From a virus, in IMG/VR virus record IMGVR_UViG_3300028733_000004, positions 1 through 56,346 of that record: a DNA stretch of 56,346 nucleotides. One strand, 5' to 3'. This document shows positions 841 to 49,704 of this stretch, piece by piece. The position numbers were made by a program, and so were the translations under genes. Below the pieces are notes generated by a model that saw only the letters and a program-made list of their open reading frames with translations, was not told where the DNA came from and made no database searches. The first letter of the stretch is position 1. The number at the start of each line of letters is the position of its first letter.

Positions 841-872
841 TTTGTATATATGAAATAAAATGATTATATTTG
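841..872 (+). promoter_or_regulatory. Bacteroidetes-type promoter
   Basis: TTTG at 841-844 is followed after 20 nt by TATATTTG at 865-872, an exact match to the TAnnTTTG -7 element of Bacteroidetes housekeeping promoters. The next gene starts 45 nt downstream. Confidence 0.65.
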
Positions 873-4872: not shown

Positions 4873-5556
4873 TTAAAATGTTGTATCATAGGTTATATCA
4901 TCAAATACAATAGGTACCAGTTTCTGGAACTGTCTTAATAATGGGCACATGAGTTCCCTCATCTGTGGATGAGCTACCTTTTGAGCACGTTGTTTGAAAA
5001 TAGTTCTCCATTCCCTTAGGTTAGCAGTAACCACTATCTCAGTTTTCAGTGCATTAGGTAATACTGATCTAGCTTCCTGAGCAACCCAACCTTCTTTTAA
5101 TAAATCCAGGTAAACCTGTTCACTGTTAGACATTGAGTGATACCATAATTTGGTAACCCTATCAATCTTCATGTAGTTGTGTTCATTGAGGATTTTAACT
5201 AAGTCAAGTTGTTCATCACTAAGCCAGAATGGCTGGATGAATGTAAGCTCATTACCAAACTTTTCCTTTGCATAATTACAGTACCTTGTACTTTCCTGGG
5301 AAAATGACGCAATTCGATGACGTACTAATTCATGGGAGATACCCCGGTCACATACAAATAAAACTGAAATTGACTGATGTTCTAGTACTGATTCATGGCC
5401 AAGTTGTATTAACTTAGCAATAAACTTCTCAGCACTTTCATCAGTAATAAGTTCTTCACTCTTGTAACAGGTTCTTCCTGCACGTTCAATGCTCTGTATA
5501 ATTGTCTTGCCATTAATATCTGACAAGATCTGGGTAGATGGTTTAATTAATTTCAT
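4873..5556 (-). CDS. thyX: Flavin-dependent thymidylate synthase ThyX
   Basis: ThyX converts dUMP to dTMP using methylene-tetrahydrofolate, FAD and NADPH. The signature RHR(x)7S is clear (R79-H80-R81 in ELVRHRIASFSQESTRY), and the C-terminal QRAQKVAHPQMRELM fits the substrate-binding helix of the family. At 227 residues it has the usual length. It lies in a minus-strand operon between a hypothetical gene and the DUF3310 gene, with intergenic gaps of 1-2 nt. Its presence matters because two ThyA-superfamily genes lie at 44797 and 45723: if ThyX makes the dTMP, those proteins are free to do something else. Confidence 0.95.
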   Translation of the reverse strand: MKLIKPSTQILSDINGKTIIQSIERAGRTCYKSEELITDESAEKFIAKLIQLGHESVLEHQSISVLFVCDRGISHELVRHRIASFSQESTRYCNYAKEKFGNELTFIQPFWLSDEQLDLVKILNEHNYMKIDRVTKLWYHSMSNSEQVYLDLLKEGWVAQEARSVLPNALKTEIVVTANLREWRTIFKQRAQKVAHPQMRELMCPLLRQFQKLVPIVFDDITYDTTF

Positions 5557-5992: not shown

Positions 5993-6105
5993 GTTCTAGT
6001 TAGTTTATTAATTATATATAACAATATGATCAGGGTAGTACCAACTAGAAAACTATTTGCAATACCACTATGGCCATATATATAATAATAACTAACTCAT
6101 TCTAT

Positions 6106-21853: not shown

Positions 21854-21887
21854 CCATACACAATACTAATTATATAAACTATATAGG

Positions 21888-22451
21888 ATGGCATCTAATA
21901 AGGTAAACATAAACATTCCCACTCCTACCATTGAGATTAAACTCGAAGGAGATTGGGCAAAAGCTGTAATGATGCCCCAGTTAGTTGTAAAATCAATTGC
22001 AGAAGGTTATGAGTTAGCAACAAGAGATTGTTCTAAAGATATCATAAGGATAGTAAAACAAGCTTTAAATACTGGCTTACCACCACCTGGTGCTCATTGG
22101 CCACCATTATCACCCACAACAATAAAGTCACATGGTAACCATACTGTATATAAAATGACTGGTTTTTATGAGAGGTCAATAGGTGTACATGTATATAAGG
22201 GCAGGGTACTAATTGGTATCCCCCTTAATATACGTGCTCCTGGGGGTTTAACTATAAATCAACTTGCTATCCTACTTGAACATGGTAGTACTAATAAGGG
22301 TGGGGGGGGTATACCACCAAGGCCCCTTTGGGCACCTTCATTAGAAGCCTATGGTGGTACTAAAAGAATAAAGAAGGTAGTTATACAAAATATAAAGAAC
22401 TGTATATTTAAAAATACGGGTATAAGCCCTAAACAACTCACAATTCAATAG
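21888..22451 (+). CDS. Tail completion / virion morphogenesis protein
   Basis: The pattern W-P-P-L-S-P-T-T near residue 70 (AHWPPLSPTTIKSHG), then YKMTGFYERSIGV, a strand with GRVLIGIP, then a helix with LAILLEHGSTN and GIPPRPLWAPSLEAY is the standard signature of phage virion morphogenesis and HK97 gp10-like proteins, which complete the neck or tail. Length 187 fits. It is followed 2 nt later by the tail-terminator candidate and then the sheath gene. Confidence 0.8.
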   Translation: MASNKVNINIPTPTIEIKLEGDWAKAVMMPQLVVKSIAEGYELATRDCSKDIIRIVKQALNTGLPPPGAHWPPLSPTTIKSHGNHTVYKMTGFYERSIGVHVYKGRVLIGIPLNIRAPGGLTINQLAILLEHGSTNKGGGGIPPRPLWAPSLEAYGGTKRIKKVVIQNIKNCIFKNTGISPKQLTIQ

Positions 22452-25571: not shown

Positions 25572-26342
25572 ATGGAAACAACACAACCACAAACAAGAAC
25601 ATTTGAATTTATTGCTCCTTCGGGGCACAGTTACACTATCAGGGAACAAAATGGTGAGGATGATGATATCCTATCAAACCCAGTAAGGGCAAAAACTTTA
25701 CAGAATCTATCAGACTTTGCATCGGGTTTAATTGTAACTAACACACGTAATAGTGGAAGACTTACTTCTGATGAAATACAAGAACTCCCCGCTTTAGACA
25801 GGTATGTAATACTATTCAACTCTAGGGTATTTTCAATTGGCAAAGATGTTGATTTTGAATTTGATTGGGGGAAAGAGAATGGTGGTATAGCTCAATATGA
25901 AGTAGATTTAAATGACTTCCTATTCGATTACAGTTCTGTACCAACTGAAGAAGTATTAAACAGTAAACCTAATGCTGTACCATTCTACCCAGCACCTGAA
26001 AAAGAAAAGGGCATAGAAATAAACCTTACATCTGGCAAGGTTGTATCATTTGACTTACTATCAGGTACTGGTGAAACCTATATGGTATCCTTACCAATTA
26101 AAACAAAGAACTCTGAATTAAAGGCTCGTAACCTTAAATTGAGTGTACAGGGTAAATTTGAAGTAGTAGAAAACTTCAGGTTATTCTCAGTAAAGGATAT
26201 GATGGAAATCAGGGCAAAAGTAAATGAGTATGACCCTATATTTGCGGGACAAACAGATATTGAGAATCCCCATAAAAGTGATCAGAAAACTATAATCAAT
26301 GTAGTTGCTATACCAGGTTTTTTCTATCCGGGGGAGATTTAA
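25572..26342 (+). CDS. Tail assembly chaperone, short (G-type) product
   Basis: 256 residues, located between tube and tape measure, as tail-assembly chaperones are in nearly all long-tailed phages. They bind the tape measure protein and guide tube assembly. The sequence begins with TRTFEFIAPSGHSYTIREQNGEDDD, a usual beta start. The last codons carry a slippery heptamer T TTT TTC at 26318-26324, which allows a -1 frameshift into a 56-codon extension. A leader rich in AAC triplets precedes the start. Confidence 0.75.
   Translation: METTQPQTRTFEFIAPSGHSYTIREQNGEDDDILSNPVRAKTLQNLSDFASGLIVTNTRNSGRLTSDEIQELPALDRYVILFNSRVFSIGKDVDFEFDWGKENGGIAQYEVDLNDFLFDYSSVPTEEVLNSKPNAVPFYPAPEKEKGIEINLTSGKVVSFDLLSGTGETYMVSLPIKTKNSELKARNLKLSVQGKFEVVENFRLFSVKDMMEIRAKVNEYDPIFAGQTDIENPHKSDQKTIINVVAIPGFFYPGEI
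26318..26324 (+). other. Programmed -1 frameshift site (T TTT TTC)
   Basis: In the zero frame the codons are GGT TTT TTC, so both tRNAs can re-pair after slipping back one base. Without slippage translation stops at TAA 26340-26342. With slippage it continues in an open frame to 26494. The site is 16 nt before the zero-frame stop, as in the lambda G/GT system. Confidence 0.75.
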
Positions 26343-26494
26343 TTAGTGACTTCGCTTATGTAACAAGGTCTAAGATATACATAGACTTTGTTACATTTAG
26401 TAAACTCCCCCTAAGATTAAAAAAAAGATTCACTGAGGATGCTGAAGGGTACTTTAAAGAGATAAATAAGAATATTCCTAACATACCTACCTAA
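26325..26494 (+). CDS. Frameshift extension of tail assembly chaperone (T-type part)
   Basis: After the slip at 26318-26324 the -1 frame is open for 56 codons and ends at TAA 26492-26494. The encoded part (for example DFAYVTRSKIYIDFVTFSKLP) is rich in basic and aromatic residues, as is usual for the T half of GT fusions. The frame contains no ATG before its stop, so independent initiation is unlikely. The predicted fusion has 307 residues. The tape measure gene starts 11 nt later. In lambda the T domain recruits the tube protein. Confidence 0.75.
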
Positions 26495-26505
26495 AAACAA
26501 ATAAT

Positions 26506-28575
26506 ATGTTTACATCAGGCTCACCTAATGCTGGTCAATTACAGATTGGTATTGCTCTGGTACTCCAGGACAGATTCACAAACCAAGCAAGGGAAGCCTC
26601 AGCCCAAATAAGGAGGTTACACCAAGAAGCAAAGAATGTAACTAATGCTAATTTAAGTGCAGCACAGAGCCTAGCAGGTACTGGTGCTGCAATTGGAGCA
26701 GGTATGAGTATGGCTCTCTATGGTGCAGTAAAACAGGGTGCTGCATTTATAGATATGATGACTTTTGTTGATGCTATTGCAAAAAAGAATGGCGTAACAA
26801 TGCAGGAGTTAACTAAGCAAGCCAGGTCATTAGGTAGAGATACCATGTTTGATTCCAGAGATATTGCATCTGCTATGAAGTTCATGGCACAAGCTGGTCT
26901 AGATACAAAGGAAATAACTGCTAATATCAGAGGTGCTGCTAACTTAGCTGGTGCAACAGGTGTATCAGTTGGAGAGAAAGGTGGAGCTGCAGATATCCTT
27001 ACTAATGTTATGAAGGTATTCCGGATGGAGTCCTCAGAGCTAAATTCAAACAGAGTTGCGGATATTCTTACTAAAGTAACTACCCGGTCTAAGGTATCAC
27101 TCTCAGAATTAAATGAGAGTATGATATATGCGGGTAGTACTGTAAGTAGTTTAGGTGGCTCTCTAGAGCAAACTGCAGCATTTGTTGGAGTACTTGCAGA
27201 TGCTGGTATACGAGGTTCTATGGCTGGTACTTCTATGTCTAATGCATACAGGTATTTAGCAAGGTCTTTGGGTGACCCAAAATTCAAAGGCAACAAAGCA
27301 TTACACTCATTGGGTTTAGGTAGACAGGATTTTATTGATGCTAAAGGCAACCTGATTGATATAGGTGCTGCAATGGTCAAGGTAAACTCTAAAACCAAGA
27401 GCATGAACAACATTGATAGGTTCAATGCTTTGGTAAGTATATTCAATGTACGTGGAGAACGTGGTGCTACCAATATGATTGCTAGTATTGATCGTTATGG
27501 TACACTATTAAGCGAGCTACAAAACAACTCTCAGGGTGCTTCAGCAAAAATCATGGAGATGAGGATGGCTAACATTGCGGGGGGTATAGATATTATGAAC
27601 TCATCACTTGAGAACTTGGTATCTACCTTCACTGAAAAAGTTGCCCCCACTTTAACCCCAATATTTGTAATGATAGGTAGTATATTTGATGCAGTATCTG
27701 CTGTATTAGACATACCATTCTTAGGGCCAGCCATATCTGCTTTTGTTGTATTTGGTACACTTTTAGTAACTGTTAGACTTGGTATAATAGCTATAACTGC
27801 TGCAGGTAGGCTGATGTTCAATGACTCTACTGTATCATTTGCAAATATGATATCTGTAATGTCAGTTGGTTGGAAAACAGCAACTATGTCTGCTTCTCAA
27901 TATGCTGCAGTACAAGCTGGTATATTAGCTGCACAAAATGCCGGGATGGCTGGAGGTGCAGCAAGGGCTTTTGCAGGTACTGCTGGTGCCACATTTATAC
28001 ATGGTAACCCAGGACAATATGCTGGGGGAGTAATGTTTAGGAATGGCAGGTATTATCAACAAACGGGTAGAGGTGCAACTGGTGTAACAAGGATATCTGC
28101 TGCTACAGCTTCTAGTGTAATGGGTGGTAAGACACCACAACAGTTAGGCATAATTGGTGCAAGTCCTGCAAGTCTAGGTATAAGGGGTGCTGGTGCTTGG
28201 GGTGCTGTTAAAGGAGTAGGTAGGTTTGCTGGTAATCTACTTGGTGGCCCATTGGGCATTGCCCTATTTGGGATAATGTTTTTACTACCAAGGCTGATAA
28301 GTGCATTCTCAGATAATACCAATTCTCACAATGATAACACTTCAGCAGTTTCTACTAACAATGCAATAGAGATGGAGAAACTAAGGAGATCTACAACACT
28401 TAACCAGGAAGAACAGAACATTATGTTGGCTAGGTCATTGGATAACCTTGCACTAGCACTGGGTTCAGGTGGCCCTGCTGCAACATTGATAATAAATGTA
28501 GATGGTAAAGAAACTACAAGGAAAGAAATACAAAAAAGTAATAGTGAACAGGTTATAAACATAGGGTCATATTAA
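26506..28575 (+). CDS. Tail tape measure protein
   Basis: Sets tail length and is ejected with DNA. The N-terminal 350 residues match the TP901-type core: Ala-rich helices, LGRDTMFDSRDIASAMKFMAQAG, the LAGATGVSVGEKG segment, and repeated YAGSTVSSLGGSLEQTAAFVG-like units. Two hydrophobic regions at residues about 400-440 and 575-600 could be membrane-active during DNA entry. At 689 residues it is short, implying a rather short tail (of the order of 100 nm if all residues were helical at 0.15 nm per residue). It lies directly after the frameshifted chaperone. Confidence 0.88.
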   Translation: MFTSGSPNAGQLQIGIALVLQDRFTNQAREASAQIRRLHQEAKNVTNANLSAAQSLAGTGAAIGAGMSMALYGAVKQGAAFIDMMTFVDAIAKKNGVTMQELTKQARSLGRDTMFDSRDIASAMKFMAQAGLDTKEITANIRGAANLAGATGVSVGEKGGAADILTNVMKVFRMESSELNSNRVADILTKVTTRSKVSLSELNESMIYAGSTVSSLGGSLEQTAAFVGVLADAGIRGSMAGTSMSNAYRYLARSLGDPKFKGNKALHSLGLGRQDFIDAKGNLIDIGAAMVKVNSKTKSMNNIDRFNALVSIFNVRGERGATNMIASIDRYGTLLSELQNNSQGASAKIMEMRMANIAGGIDIMNSSLENLVSTFTEKVAPTLTPIFVMIGSIFDAVSAVLDIPFLGPAISAFVVFGTLLVTVRLGIIAITAAGRLMFNDSTVSFANMISVMSVGWKTATMSASQYAAVQAGILAAQNAGMAGGAARAFAGTAGATFIHGNPGQYAGGVMFRNGRYYQQTGRGATGVTRISAATASSVMGGKTPQQLGIIGASPASLGIRGAGAWGAVKGVGRFAGNLLGGPLGIALFGIMFLLPRLISAFSDNTNSHNDNTSAVSTNNAIEMEKLRRSTTLNQEEQNIMLARSLDNLALALGSGGPAATLIINVDGKETTRKEIQKSNSEQVINIGSY

Positions 28576-36956: not shown

Positions 36957-36995
36957 GCGAAGGTTTGGGTTACTTTAACTCAGCCTTCGCTTTTT
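36957..36995 (+). terminator. Late-operon terminator inside the convergent gene end
   Basis: A 7-bp GC-rich stem (GCGAAGG at 36957-36963 with CCTTCGC at 36984-36990), 20-nt loop, then five T residues. The 3' arm lies in the last codons of the minus-strand sigma-like gene, so one DNA stretch serves both. Confidence 0.7.
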
Positions 36996-37617
36996 CGACT
37001 GTTATTTCTATTTCTTTCCTTAATGCAGTAATAAAATTAGAGTGGGTCTTAGTCCTTGGTAAGTCAAAAAAATCTAATAACATAATAATGCTGGGTTTAG
37101 AGTTCTGAGTTTTCATCATATCTTTTATAAACTCAGGTGGATCATTCTGTACTTCAAATAACAGGAATGCATCTGGGCTTAAATTATTACGCATAAATGT
37201 ATATAACCTATCCATCCTGGCTTGTATTAATTCACTTTCTGAATGATCTTCAATAAGCTCTTTGCTATCATCAAATAAATCTTCCATACTTGTCAATGCT
37301 TGATAGTATTCTGACTGTTCAGTATAGGCCTTCCTAAGTAACCTATTTTTAAATGTCATAAGTGAACTTATAAGGGTAGCCCTTAAATGTTCTTCACTAT
37401 ATTCCCCCTGATACTTATTAAATACATAAAGAAACTTATCCCAGAAATAAGATTGGATAACATCATTGGGAACATTAAACCTTCTCTCATCCACATTTCT
37501 AGCCAACCTTTTAACTAAAGGTTTTAAGTTACGGTATAGCTTATTAAAAAGCATCTCATCGTAATCCTCCATTACCTTCAACCTATGCAGTTCACTGCCA
37601 TCACTATTTATTTCCAT
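36970..37617 (-). CDS. Sigma-factor-like protein
   Basis: 215 residues from an ATG at 37617. A longer frame exists only with a TTG at 37641, which lies inside the promoter. Residues about 20-100 resemble sigma region 2: helices with MLFNKLYRNLKPLVKRLARN, then NDVIQSYFWDKFLYVFNKYQG, then LRATLISSLMTFKNRLLRKAYTE, comparable to the 'DlvQe.f...y......f..wL...i.N...d..R' pattern of small sigma factors. The C-terminal part (LSPDAFLLFEVQNDPPEF and LPRTKTHSNFITALRKEI) could be a degenerate region 4. It may direct host RNA polymerase to phage genes. It is the only gene on this strand in the right half of the window. Assignment is moderate. Confidence 0.55.
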   Translation of the reverse strand: MEINSDGSELHRLKVMEDYDEMLFNKLYRNLKPLVKRLARNVDERRFNVPNDVIQSYFWDKFLYVFNKYQGEYSEEHLRATLISSLMTFKNRLLRKAYTEQSEYYQALTSMEDLFDDSKELIEDHSESELIQARMDRLYTFMRNNLSPDAFLLFEVQNDPPEFIKDMMKTQNSKPSIIMLLDFFDLPRTKTHSNFITALRKEIEITVEKAKAELK

Positions 37618-37638
37618 ATTTGAATTATTAATTATTTG

Positions 37639-37668
37639 CAAATATAATACATATTTTTATATATGCAA
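37639..37668 (-). promoter_or_regulatory. Bacteroidetes-type promoter of the sigma-like gene
   Basis: On the minus strand TTG (37668-37666) is followed after 19 nt by TATATTTG (37646-37639), an exact TAnnTTTG -7 box with the best spacing in the window. Transcription should start near 37632, giving a short leader before the ATG at 37617. Confidence 0.75.
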
Positions 37669-37672
37669 TGGA

Positions 37673-37738
37673 AAGCTAGCACAATTTTTCACCTTAGTAG
37701 TATACTTTATGTGGATTGATATTAGGAGATGCTAGCTT
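37673..37738. promoter_or_regulatory. Inverted repeats in the divergent control region
   Basis: AAGCTAGCA at 37673-37681 and its exact complement TGCTAGCTT at 37730-37738 flank 48 bp containing TATACTTTA (37701-37709), which may be the plus-strand -7 region. Each arm contains the palindrome GCTAGC. The layout suggests an operator controlling the divergent sigma-like gene and replication operon. Confidence 0.4.
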
Positions 37739-42999: not shown

Positions 43000-43407
43000 A
43001 TGTCAACTAAAGTAAAGAAAAAGAAGTCACTACTGCCTGACTTGTCCAAGATGGATATCCTAAAGCCATTATCAATTACTGATATAGGGTCTAATGGTGA
43101 TCCATGCTTTGGTAAGGCTTATGATCTGTCAACTAAAGAATGTAAGATGTGTGGAGATTCTGAATTATGTGCAATAGTATTTGCCCAGACAATGAATACC
43201 ACAAGAGGTGAAATTGAGAAGGAAAAACATTTCAAGGACATGGATGTATTAATTGATATTCCAGGTGTAAAAAAATACATGAGGAAATTGAAGCGTACGG
43301 GGTATATTAAGAAGGATATTATTACAATGTCCATGGCTAAGTTTGAAATAGCTAAATCAGATACAAGGGATATATATAGAAGTTTAAACAATTTAAAAGA
43401 AGAGTAA
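43000..43407 (+). CDS. Putative zinc-binding protein (135 aa)
   Basis: Residues 33-58 hold four Cys in a zinc-ribbon-like pattern: DPCFGKAYDLSTKECKMCGDSELC. The rest is helical and Lys-rich (VKKYMRKLKRTGYIKKDI). No enzymatic motif. Its stop shares a base with the HNH start (TAATGG). Upstream is a 35-nt leader with TAAACAAAAC, similar to leaders of other replication genes. Probably a nucleic-acid-binding accessory protein. Confidence 0.6.
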   Translation: MSTKVKKKKSLLPDLSKMDILKPLSITDIGSNGDPCFGKAYDLSTKECKMCGDSELCAIVFAQTMNTTRGEIEKEKHFKDMDVLIDIPGVKKYMRKLKRTGYIKKDIITMSMAKFEIAKSDTRDIYRSLNNLKEE

Positions 43408-43913
43408 TGGATGATAATATACCAGGCTTCCCAGGTTACCATATAGCTAGAGGTGGGAAGTTATACAATAGGGGAAAGCCAAAACCAACGTATGTTCATA
43501 AGAATGGGTACTTAAGGTCTAGGTTAAGAAATGAAAAAGGTAAAACTTATAACAAAACTATACATAGGCTAGTTGCCATAGCTTGGGTACCAAATCCAAA
43601 GCCTGGTATATATAATACTGTATTACATAATGATAATATAAGGTTACACAACTTTGATACAAACTTACACTGGGGTACACAACAGGAAAATATAGACCAG
43701 GCTATAAAAGATGGTATCATGAATGTAAAGGGTAAGAATAATCCCATGTATGGTGTACACAGAGATTGTAGGGGTAAAGTAAACAAAACCTTATCAGGTA
43801 ATAAGAAAACTCAGGTAAGGGGATTATACAAAACAGGAAACTATAAACTTACTGAGTTAGCAAAAAAGTTTTCAGTAGGAACTAAGAATATAAAACGAAT
43901 TATAAACATTTAA
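43407..43913 (+). CDS. Free-standing HNH homing endonuclease
   Basis: The NUMOD4-like start IPGFPGYHIARGGKLYNRG, then NGYLRSRLRNEKGKTYNKTIHRLVAIAWV, then the HNH core VLHNDNIRLHNFDTNLHWGTQQENIDQA (His, Asn-Asp and Asn) are diagnostic. The C-terminal 60 residues carry NNPMYGVHRD (a NUMOD-type motif) and a helix-turn-helix-like LTELAKKFSVGTKNIKRI. Such genes are mobile: they cut related phages lacking the insertion and are copied by repair. It sits between the zinc protein and the dUTPase-like gene, whose start may have been altered by the insertion. Confidence 0.85.
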   Translation: MDDNIPGFPGYHIARGGKLYNRGKPKPTYVHKNGYLRSRLRNEKGKTYNKTIHRLVAIAWVPNPKPGIYNTVLHNDNIRLHNFDTNLHWGTQQENIDQAIKDGIMNVKGKNNPMYGVHRDCRGKVNKTLSGNKKTQVRGLYKTGNYKLTELAKKFSVGTKNIKRIINI

Positions 43914-44797: not shown

Positions 44798-45726
44798 TGG
44801 GCAAGGTATCTGGCTCAATCCAAGAAAAATGCCACAACTTGGAATTTGCAACCTCCCAGGAAGCTTGGGAAGGTTTAAATGAAATGTTCATATACCATGA
44901 TAAAAGGTTATTTAAACATGGAGCATCATTTACATCGGGTATGTCTGCTGTATATAACATATTCATAAAGATAAGGAAAGCTTGGGTAGACCCAGAATTC
45001 GATTATGGTTTAATGTTTAATTACAGGGAACAGAAATGGACCACTCTAGTGAATAATTATTTAAACTTAAATAAACTAGACCTACTTAGGTCTAAAGTTC
45101 GCTACTTCCAGTCTAAGTATAACCAAAACTATAATATATCTTACTCATTTGATAACTCCCATGATAATGGGAAAGGTTGTTTATTAGCTGCAACATTTTC
45201 AAGGAGATTAAATGATGACATCCCAGTTATAACTGTAATGTTAAGGTCATCAGAGATAACTAAAAGGTTAATATTTGATCTCCTATTAGTACAAAGGATG
45301 GCAGAATATGTATATGGTAAAGAAGTAACCTGCATGATAAATATATTTGCAACTCAAATGTATTGCAATACAGAAACACTGGTAATGTATAATACTCATA
45401 GGCCACTTGCTGATGTACTTGAAGAAAACAAAAAGAAGTGGATGTCAAAGGGTATAGCAAAAGATTCATGGCCTGAAAGTTTATTAAAAACATTCAATAC
45501 CTTCATGGATAAACCTGAATCATTTGGGAGTTATAAGGTTTTCTTAAGAACTGCAAAATGCTTAAGACCTGATTATTACAAGGGGCACTATAAACCTTTA
45601 ATTGCAGTTAATATGGTTTTAGAATATGATGAGGGCATTGAATACCCCGAAACCGTCATAAGCTTCTCACAAAGAAAAGCATACAAAAAGAAACATAACA
45701 AACAACTTAAAAAACTAGTAGTATGA
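44797..45726 (+). CDS. ThyA-superfamily protein A (divergent hydroxymethylase-like)
   Basis: The thymidylate-synthase fold is recognisable from GKGCLLAATFSRR (candidate nucleophile C128), MLRSSEITKRLIFDLLLVQRMAEYVYG and NIFATQMYCN. Compared with TS the RSxD motif reads RSSE (E153 for the Asp), eight residues later the uracil-reading Asn is Asp (D161), and the TH.Y motif is TQMY (Q187 for His, Y189 kept). The 'PC' of TS is 'GC'. An Asp at this position marks T4 dCMP hydroxymethylase, so a cytosine-specific enzyme or an inactive partner of the next protein is likely. It begins at the last base of the dUTPase-like gene and overlaps the next gene by 4 nt. Similarity is distant, seen by eye. Confidence 0.55.
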   Translation: MGKVSGSIQEKCHNLEFATSQEAWEGLNEMFIYHDKRLFKHGASFTSGMSAVYNIFIKIRKAWVDPEFDYGLMFNYREQKWTTLVNNYLNLNKLDLLRSKVRYFQSKYNQNYNISYSFDNSHDNGKGCLLAATFSRRLNDDIPVITVMLRSSEITKRLIFDLLLVQRMAEYVYGKEVTCMINIFATQMYCNTETLVMYNTHRPLADVLEENKKKWMSKGIAKDSWPESLLKTFNTFMDKPESFGSYKVFLRTAKCLRPDYYKGHYKPLIAVNMVLEYDEGIEYPETVISFSQRKAYKKKHNKQLKKLVV

Positions 45727-46484
45727 GGATTTACGCAAACGCTTACGAGTTAATGTCAGAAACTGGCAGAAACTTATGGGAAATGGGTGCAGAGGTTAAA
45801 CCTAAAACTTATCAAGATAAGGTAATTGAGGGTGATGACAACTTTATTACAAAAGAACTTATCTGTGAACAGTATTGTTTAACTGACTTACCAGATGAGG
45901 ATTTATTATTCTTATTTGACCCACGTTCTAAGGACTGGACAAAGGCAGAATTTGTTGAAAGGGTATCAATTGGTAAAAGCCAAAATCCTGGGGAAGCCTA
46001 TAAACTTAGGCCAGATCTTTGGGAGCAATTCATAAACAGTAGAGGGAAGTTCGACTACAACTATAATGACCGGATGAGGTATGAAAAAGCCTTGTTTAGC
46101 AGATTAGAGCTGGATAACTTGTCTATAGTAATAAAGCAACTAATGTTTGACCACCAGACAAGGAAGGCAGTATTACCAATCTACACCCTAGATGATGTAT
46201 CCAAGATACCAGAGGGCAAAAGGATACCTTGTTCAATGTATTATGACTTCTTAGTAAGGGAAGTAAATGGTGAAGAACAATTAAACATAACCTACCACCA
46301 AAGGTCTGCAGATTATGTTACCCACTTTGGTAATGATGTATTCCTTGCCTGGAAACTAATGCAATATGTTGCTTCACTGATAAAAGTTAAACCAGGGTAC
46401 CTATACCATACCATAGATTCACTACACAGTTACAAAAAAGACTGGGTAAAACTTAAAACATCAGTAGGAGACTTCAAAAAATAA
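45723..46484 (+). CDS. ThyA-superfamily protein B, candidate dCMP hydroxymethylase
   Basis: A clear ThyA-superfamily protein, 253 residues. The catalytic loop is RIPCSMYYDFLV (C170), preceded by DHQTRKAVLP, the usual 'SRR' phosphate-binding region. Then come HQRSADYVTHFGNDVFLAW (R194, D197) and IDSLHSYKKDW (H235, Y237). Counting without gaps from D197, position +8 is D205; in E. coli TS it is Asn177, which reads uracil. T4 dCMP hydroxymethylase has Asp there, so 5-hydroxymethylation of dCMP is the best guess. N204 next to D205 leaves dUMP specificity possible with a one-residue gap. Its start overlaps the sister gene by 4 nt. Confidence 0.72.
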   Translation: MRIYANAYELMSETGRNLWEMGAEVKPKTYQDKVIEGDDNFITKELICEQYCLTDLPDEDLLFLFDPRSKDWTKAEFVERVSIGKSQNPGEAYKLRPDLWEQFINSRGKFDYNYNDRMRYEKALFSRLELDNLSIVIKQLMFDHQTRKAVLPIYTLDDVSKIPEGKRIPCSMYYDFLVREVNGEEQLNITYHQRSADYVTHFGNDVFLAWKLMQYVASLIKVKPGYLYHTIDSLHSYKKDWVKLKTSVGDFKK

Positions 46485-49254: not shown

Positions 49255-49293
49255 AGAATTTCTATAAACTATTAATATATAAACAAAAACATT

Positions 49294-49704
49294 ATGAATT
49301 TAGCAACAATGCTTGGCCAGTCTCTTATTTCAAAAGATACTGCAATGTTAATCAACAGTGAGTTATACAAAAGGGGTCAGGTAACTGAGAACCGGGTTAT
49401 AATCATTACACCTAAAGAAATTGAGGGTAGGACTGCATCTGGTATAATCATACCCGGAGAAGTAACAGAAGGGGTACCAAGAAAGGGTATCTGTGTTCAA
49501 ATGGGAGAGTTCACTGAAGAGAATCGGACCTATACCTCTGTAGTTGGGATTGGTAATGTACTTACCTATGGCTTATATGCTGGTAAGGAAATTGATCTAC
49601 TAGAACCCCTATTAGTAAAAGGTTTTAACCCTGACAAACATGAACTAAGGTGTATATCAGTTAATGAGATTATGTATTCTGAGTATCCAATTAAACTAAC
49701 ATAA
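49294..49704 (+). CDS. GroES-like co-chaperonin
   Basis: Residues 30-130 follow the Cpn10 fold: RVIIITPKEIEGRTASGIIIPG (the 'T.gGIilP' mobile-loop pattern), then RKGICVQMGE, then VGIGNVLTYGLYAGKEIDL and the final strand LRCISVNEIMYSE. Phage-encoded GroES proteins (as T4 gp31) replace the host co-chaperonin so that the host chaperonin can fold the capsid protein. No GroEL-like gene is present in the window. A leader with ACTATTAATATATAAACAAA precedes it. Confidence 0.8.
   Translation: MNLATMLGQSLISKDTAMLINSELYKRGQVTENRVIIITPKEIEGRTASGIIIPGEVTEGVPRKGICVQMGEFTEENRTYTSVVGIGNVLTYGLYAGKEIDLLEPLLVKGFNPDKHELRCISVNEIMYSEYPIKLT

Follow-up and report, generated by a model that had tools for sequence, protein, structure and literature searches.

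Phage sigma cascades are already known. Here we describe a probable addition to them in a 56,346-nucleotide (nt) stretch of viral DNA (IMG/VR record IMGVR_UViG_3300028733_000004, positions 1 to 56,346; referred to throughout as the window), in which a minus-strand open reading frame (ORF) at 36970-37617, with its ATG at 37617, encodes a 215-aa protein. An earlier note on the window, made by a model from the letters alone, had singled out this lone minus-strand gene between the late and replication blocks as encoding a sigma-like protein, and the gene is confirmed at that place. Among the described systems, phiEco32 gp36 and phage 7-11 gp47 are phage sigmas that work with host core RNA polymerase; the early genes of these phages are on host-type promoters, and their middle and late promoters are either a single element, tAATGTAtA, with starts 6-8 bp downstream, or bipartite, GTAAtg-(16)-aCTA (PMC8948821). 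T4 gp55 is a small, highly diverged protein of the sigma70 family that sends the host polymerase to late promoters (PMC2988020). We consider it probable, given a predicted structure and the distribution of promoter-like boxes, that the product of the sigma-like gene is a phage sigma factor whose regions 2 and 4 are arranged as in the extracytoplasmic function (ECF) sigmas, expressed from a host promoter and directing host core polymerase to phage promoters.

Compared by description, the scheme proposed here resembles that of phiEco32 gp36 and 7-11 gp47 in its division between host-type early promoters and phage-specific middle and late promoters. The differences are that gp36, the product of a middle gene, lacks region 4 homology according to PMC8948821, whereas region 4 is predicted in our protein and a host-type promoter precedes its gene. 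The likeness to T4 gp55 is that of a small, diverged sigma type proposed to direct host polymerase to phage promoters. However, gp55 is sigma70-like in domain 2 only and acts together with gp33 and the sliding clamp (PMC2988020), whereas regions 2 and 4 are predicted here in a single protein. Members of the gp55 family have no region 4 domain, and here a predicted region 4 occupies the C-terminus; the gp55 type, which the earlier note had named as a family to search against, does not describe this protein. Bacterial ECF sigmas (E. coli SigE, SigW, SigL, CnrH) have the same layout of region 2, short linker and region 4, and rank among the nearest structures to each domain. They differ from our protein in that there is no detectable sequence-profile match between them, no recognised anti-sigma neighbour here, and another genomic setting. 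The sole phage protein family with even a weak sequence match is phrog_3741, of unknown function (E 8e-4, residues 25-176), and most members of the family described here do not match it.

An AlphaFold model of the protein, built from a 23-sequence alignment, is all-helical with two domains (pLDDT, the model's confidence score, 83). When the model was compared with the Protein Data Bank (PDB) by Foldseek, ranks 2-18 were all sigma factors, and against viral models one relative in an 'Ackermannviridae' record came first, followed by many phage sigma factors. With VIA-align, essentially every chain in the best 50 rows for the whole model is a sigma factor, and most alignments span both domains, covering residues 14-215 in order, so that region 2 and region 4 are collinear in one chain. 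Residues 16-104 alone align with region 2 of CnrH (75 residues, 2.8 A), SigW (82, 3.9 A) and FliA (80, 3.6 A), and the region 2 matches to the predicted model as a group (CnrH, SigW, SigK, FliA) fall at 2.8-4.0 A over 74-82 residues. Residues 118-215 were modelled separately so that one domain could not fill the match list; this model has a pLDDT of 87, and its best 50 rows are all sigma region 4 (Z 6.4-8.3), including region 4 of E. coli SigE bound to -35 DNA (68 residues, 3.0 A). By the earlier note, a lack of structural similarity to sigma factors would have refuted the idea; instead, such similarity was seen for the whole model and for the separate C-terminal domain, domain by domain. One relative, at 9986-10561 of L016 (IMG/VR 3300002026_000156), is only 192 aa long, with about 22 residues missing inside region 4, which may be an assembly error or a real shortened form.

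At the sequence level, the sigma region 2-like pattern that the earlier note saw in the protein is real, and lies within its most conserved stretch (D52, S56, F58, D60, K61, N67 and Y69 in an alignment of 23 relatives). Region 2.2 is the core-binding helix of sigma factors, and hhalign to a wider sigma set places the D-x-x-Q of our protein (D52, Q55) on the D-x-x-Q of region 2.2. In hhalign comparisons with a 24-sequence ECF profile, for which other families of the same phages served as controls, the sigma-like family ranked first of 43 phage family alignments and was the only one to align full length and collinearly, over 157 columns, the others reaching at most 50. The fold and profile lines, each weak or middling alone, together make a sigma fold very likely.

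The promoter proposed in the earlier note, an exact match to the Bacteroidetes consensus, is also present: TTG-N19-TATATTTG lies at 37668-37639 (-), upstream of the sigma-like gene. The Bacteroides -7 consensus is TAnnTTTGY, accompanied by a -33 site (PMC12632263). TAnnTTTG occurs within 90 nt upstream of the sigma gene in 34/37 family members, against 2.8 expected from shuffling, and the box is conserved although the proteins are as little as ~34% identical. The exact TTG-N19-TATATTTG match alone is no rarity (expected number 0.18 for the window; at least one in 16/100 shuffles), and we dropped the uniqueness of the string within the 56-kb AT-rich window as evidence. The match is significant because of its place and conservation, not because of the rarity of the string. 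Calling it the best host-type promoter in the window was fair, but it is not unique in kind: the gene at 918 has a fuller TTTG-N20-TATATTTG, closer to the -33 consensus. A GGTGAAA element stands upstream of the sigma promoter; it is found in 11/27 sigma-helicase gaps against 1.9 expected and is possibly a regulator site or operator. It is present in the gaps of L015-L019, L026, L027, L009, L010 and L012, and in L027 it forms the palindrome GGTGAAGTTTTTCACC.

We classed the gene starts that have intergenic sequence upstream of them in nine near genomes, including the window, and then in eight divergent genomes fetched afterwards as a check. In the near set, TAnnTTTGCA precedes 9/9 sigma genes, 30/105 early or end genes and 1/135 structural and replication starts (Fisher p about 2e-14). 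In the divergent set, TAnnTTTG precedes 7/8 sigma genes, 55/160 early genes and 5/94 structural and replication starts, the last figure dividing into 1/67 structural and 4/27 replication. Because this partition agrees in near and divergent genomes, the sigma-like gene is the one genome-core gene that consistently has a host-type -7 box. Moreover, the claim that late and middle genes lack good host promoters holds in both sets.

Conserved boxes of non-host type are found at the replication operon and at the structural operon, and they differ between the two. In the gap ahead of the helicase gene, [AG][ATG]ACTAT is found on the plus strand at 23/35 loci, against 2.6 expected, and on the other strand at 3. 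Similar RTACTATT-like boxes stand ahead of other replication genes, and in divergent phages TACTATT precedes the minus cluster at 12/38 loci, against 0.9 expected. Tandem ACTAT repeats about 11-12 nt apart were seen in the sigma-helicase gaps of L011, L018, L037, L041 and L042, a spacing that would suit helically phased binding sites.

For the gap before the structural operon, an expectation-maximization motif search over 43 loci returned GCAA[TG]ACC (the late box) with a log-likelihood of 154, against 24-38 for shuffles, about 23-60 nt ahead of the first structural gene. In relatives, related [GA]CAATAC[CT] boxes precede the genes for sheath, protease and other structural proteins, often at a distance of 37-41 nt from the ATG. 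In the near genomes, [GA]CAA[TG]AC[CT] accompanies 17/110 structural starts and 0/59 replication starts; with near and divergent genomes pooled, the figures are 27/177 and 1/86 (p 2e-4). Alignment on the late box revealed no other strongly conserved column, and a fixed -35-like partner, sought in this way, did not emerge as a strong upstream column. A -35 position for GCAATACC itself was rejected because the start codon follows only ~23-25 nt after the start of the box in L108, L130 and L159. If the late box is a promoter, its position would fit a -10-like place and not a -35-like one; otherwise it would be a non-promoter site. A packaging site near the terminase is less likely, given the copies before the sheath, protease and other structural genes of relatives.

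The sigma-like gene is a core gene of its phage family. A scan with the large terminase (TerL) gave 80 loci, and among the 17 records checked a sigma relative is present in 10/10 TerL relatives of at least 73 kb; the 7/17 records that lack one are fragments of 24-46 kb. Ten relatives show gene-by-gene colinearity, with the lone minus gene at a constant position. No Sigma70_r2 protein is recognisable in 13 phage records, the sigma-like protein included, and no RpoC-type (multisubunit) RNA polymerase domain in 17. A search for T7-type polymerase had no match in any control genome, and hence is uninformative.

Four results are computed: both domains are predicted to have the sigma fold, the gene occurs across the family in the same genomic place, its host-type -7 box is conserved, and three kinds of box divide among the gene classes. 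From these we infer core binding, promoter recognition, timing and which box is read. After infection, the RNA polymerase of the host, equipped with its primary sigma, would transcribe the early genes and the sigma-like gene from -33/-7 promoters. The sigma-like protein would then bind host core polymerase (these phage genomes show no recognisable multisubunit polymerase domain). It would take the core to phage promoters without the host -7 box, the target class being the RTACTATT-like boxes of the replication operon, the [GA]CAA[TG]AC[CT] boxes of the structural operon, or both. The predicted sigma fold and the promoter partition support, as a reading, the idea put forward in the earlier note of an early phage sigma made from a host promoter and switching transcription to middle or late genes. 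We regard as tentative, and as less likely than not, a three-step programme with host -33/-7 promoters for early genes, RTACTATT-like boxes for replication and [GA]CAA[TG]AC[CT] for structural genes, in which one sequence-orphan phage sigma reads, or switches between, both non-host classes.

Several results weigh against a phage sigma factor of this kind. Pfam, NCBIfam and PHROGs detect no sigma family in the 215-aa protein, and the search with profile hidden Markov models for sigma-70 region 2 that the earlier note had recommended went against it: none of the 23 family members matches Sigma70_r2 (PF04542), and the protein is outside that Pfam sequence family. A profile search of PDB sequences gave nothing useful for the sigma call. 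The hhalign match to the ECF profile has a P of only 0.007, the Foldseek E-values against the PDB are weak (0.6 and up) and not significant alone, and Z scores of 7-8 are middling for a helical protein. As for the boxes, their patterns were picked after inspection of the near genomes, which makes the divergent genomes the fairer test, and in the divergent set alone the class specificity of the late box is not significant (p = 0.17). The helicase gap of the window itself holds only a degenerate box (score 3.8); the corresponding gaps of L009 and L041 have a clear one. Finally, there are two non-host box types but one sigma candidate, so at least one class may need another factor.

Some of these points feed other explanations. 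That no sequence profile recognises a sigma domain, and that middling Z scores are frequent for helical models, would suit another kind of helical DNA-binding protein, such as a terminase small subunit or a two-domain helix-turn-helix regulator, its sigma likeness reflecting a common helical arrangement; one relative even has a weak match to a terminase small subunit family (E 0.04). We judge this very unlikely, given that both halves independently retrieve sigma factors, with the correct domain and in the right order, and that the gene does not adjoin the large terminase. The presence of two box types at the two operons, rather than one, would suit a scheme in which the protein is a sigma factor for host genes or for a few phage genes, and the structural and replication operons are read by host holoenzyme with box-binding phage activators; the tandem ACTAT repeats in some helicase gaps are arranged as activator sites might be. 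However, host -7 boxes are nearly absent from those operons, so that an activator would need to take over the whole role of the -7 box, and the sigma-like gene is a core gene of the family; we consider this account improbable. The fold evidence would serve equally well for a sigma mimic that binds host core and whose main role is to displace the sigma of the host and so silence host transcription, leaving other phage factors to drive the middle and late genes, and early expression from a host promoter is compatible with it. Such a mimic seems unlikely to us, in view of a predicted region 4 most of which aligns with the DNA-binding region 4 of sigma factors, and of non-host boxes that need a reader in a phage with no recognisable Sigma70_r2 protein elsewhere. 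A phage sigma factor that directs host core polymerase to phage promoters is the reading we retain.

Table 1. Positions of the sigma-like gene and of promoter-like elements in the window
Feature	Position	Strand	Remarks
Sigma-like gene	36970..37617	-	Predicted: residues ~16-104 region 2 fold, ~125-215 region 4 fold
-7 box TATATTTG (Bacteroidota consensus TAnnTTTG)	37639..37646	-	Ends ~21 nt before the ATG; kept in 34/37 relatives
-33 TTG	37666..37668	-	Separated from the -7 box by 19 nt; a TTG 17-23 nt away in only 15/37 relatives
GGTGAAA element	37687..37693	-	Precedes the sigma promoter; orientation varies among close relatives
Divergent intergenic region, sigma gene / DnaB helicase operon	37618..37728		No host-type box facing the helicase
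Other host-type promoter TTTG-N20-TATATTTG	841..872	+	Precedes the small early-type gene at 918
Late-operon box GCAATACC	6059..6066	+	47 nt upstream of ATG 6106, the probable true start of the first structural-operon gene
Second late-type box CAATACT	21861..21867	+	27 nt before the structural-operon gene at 21888
Replication-type box AAACTATT	49266..49273	+	28 nt before the gene at 49294

Within the window, the sigma-like gene is a single reversed gene that separates two plus-strand operons. The structural operon (~30 kb) encodes terminase, portal, protease, capsid, contractile tail sheath, tail tube, tape measure and baseplate. The replication operon begins with the DnaB helicase, followed by primase, a second helicase and DNA polymerase, and also holds a single-strand binding protein, a UvsX-like recombinase and SbcCD-like genes. 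A coding-looking stretch of 163 nt without its own start (26342-26506), flanked by the gene at 25572 (256 aa) and the tape measure gene, recurs at the same position in relatives and is a candidate for a programmed frameshift in a tail assembly chaperone. Two genes of the phage, at 4873-5556 (-) and 45723-46484 (+), match different thymidylate synthase families (phrog_85 and phrog_160). An HNH endonuclease gene at 43407-43913 has its best matches at differing places in relatives (G009 60301, W01 2193), once between the sigma and helicase genes, and is likely a mobile homing endonuclease.

The proposed 'Flandersviridae' are abundant gut phages that infect Bacteroides, with a genome of ~85 kb, a terminal locus of ~20 kb of unknown ORFs and a TerL branch that adjoins Ackermannviridae; the words 'sigma' and 'opposite strand' are absent from their founding paper (PMC8008677). 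The window has the contractile tail and a structural module (sheath, portal, capsid and protease) ahead of DnaB, DnaG and PolA, with the 'Flandersviridae' order of DnaB, primase and DNA polymerase. Among the relatives fetched, the largest measure 73-89 kb and have a terminal region of unknown ORFs; the window, at 56 kb, appears incomplete. By gene order and contractile tail the phage family fits 'Flandersviridae', and the size of the larger relatives and their terminal locus may fit as well; we take it as a putative member. A search of genome contigs had one match, L082 (CANQPD010000018.1), a contig of the phage family inside a metagenome-assembled genome of Dysosmobacter (Firmicutes). This contig is probably mis-binned, because the promoters of the phage family point to a Bacteroidota host.

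On our best reading, the sigma-like protein would be a sequence-orphan addition to a known kind of regulator, the phage sigma, in a family that matches abundant gut phages. The finding is moderately surprising and easy to test: if it is true, a single purified protein, host core polymerase and two promoter fragments would be enough to test the switch directly. It would also supply candidate phage-specific promoters for Bacteroides, and would make the early, replication and structural gene classes of these phages readable from sequence. A core gene listed as unknown would then be the main switch of the infection cycle.
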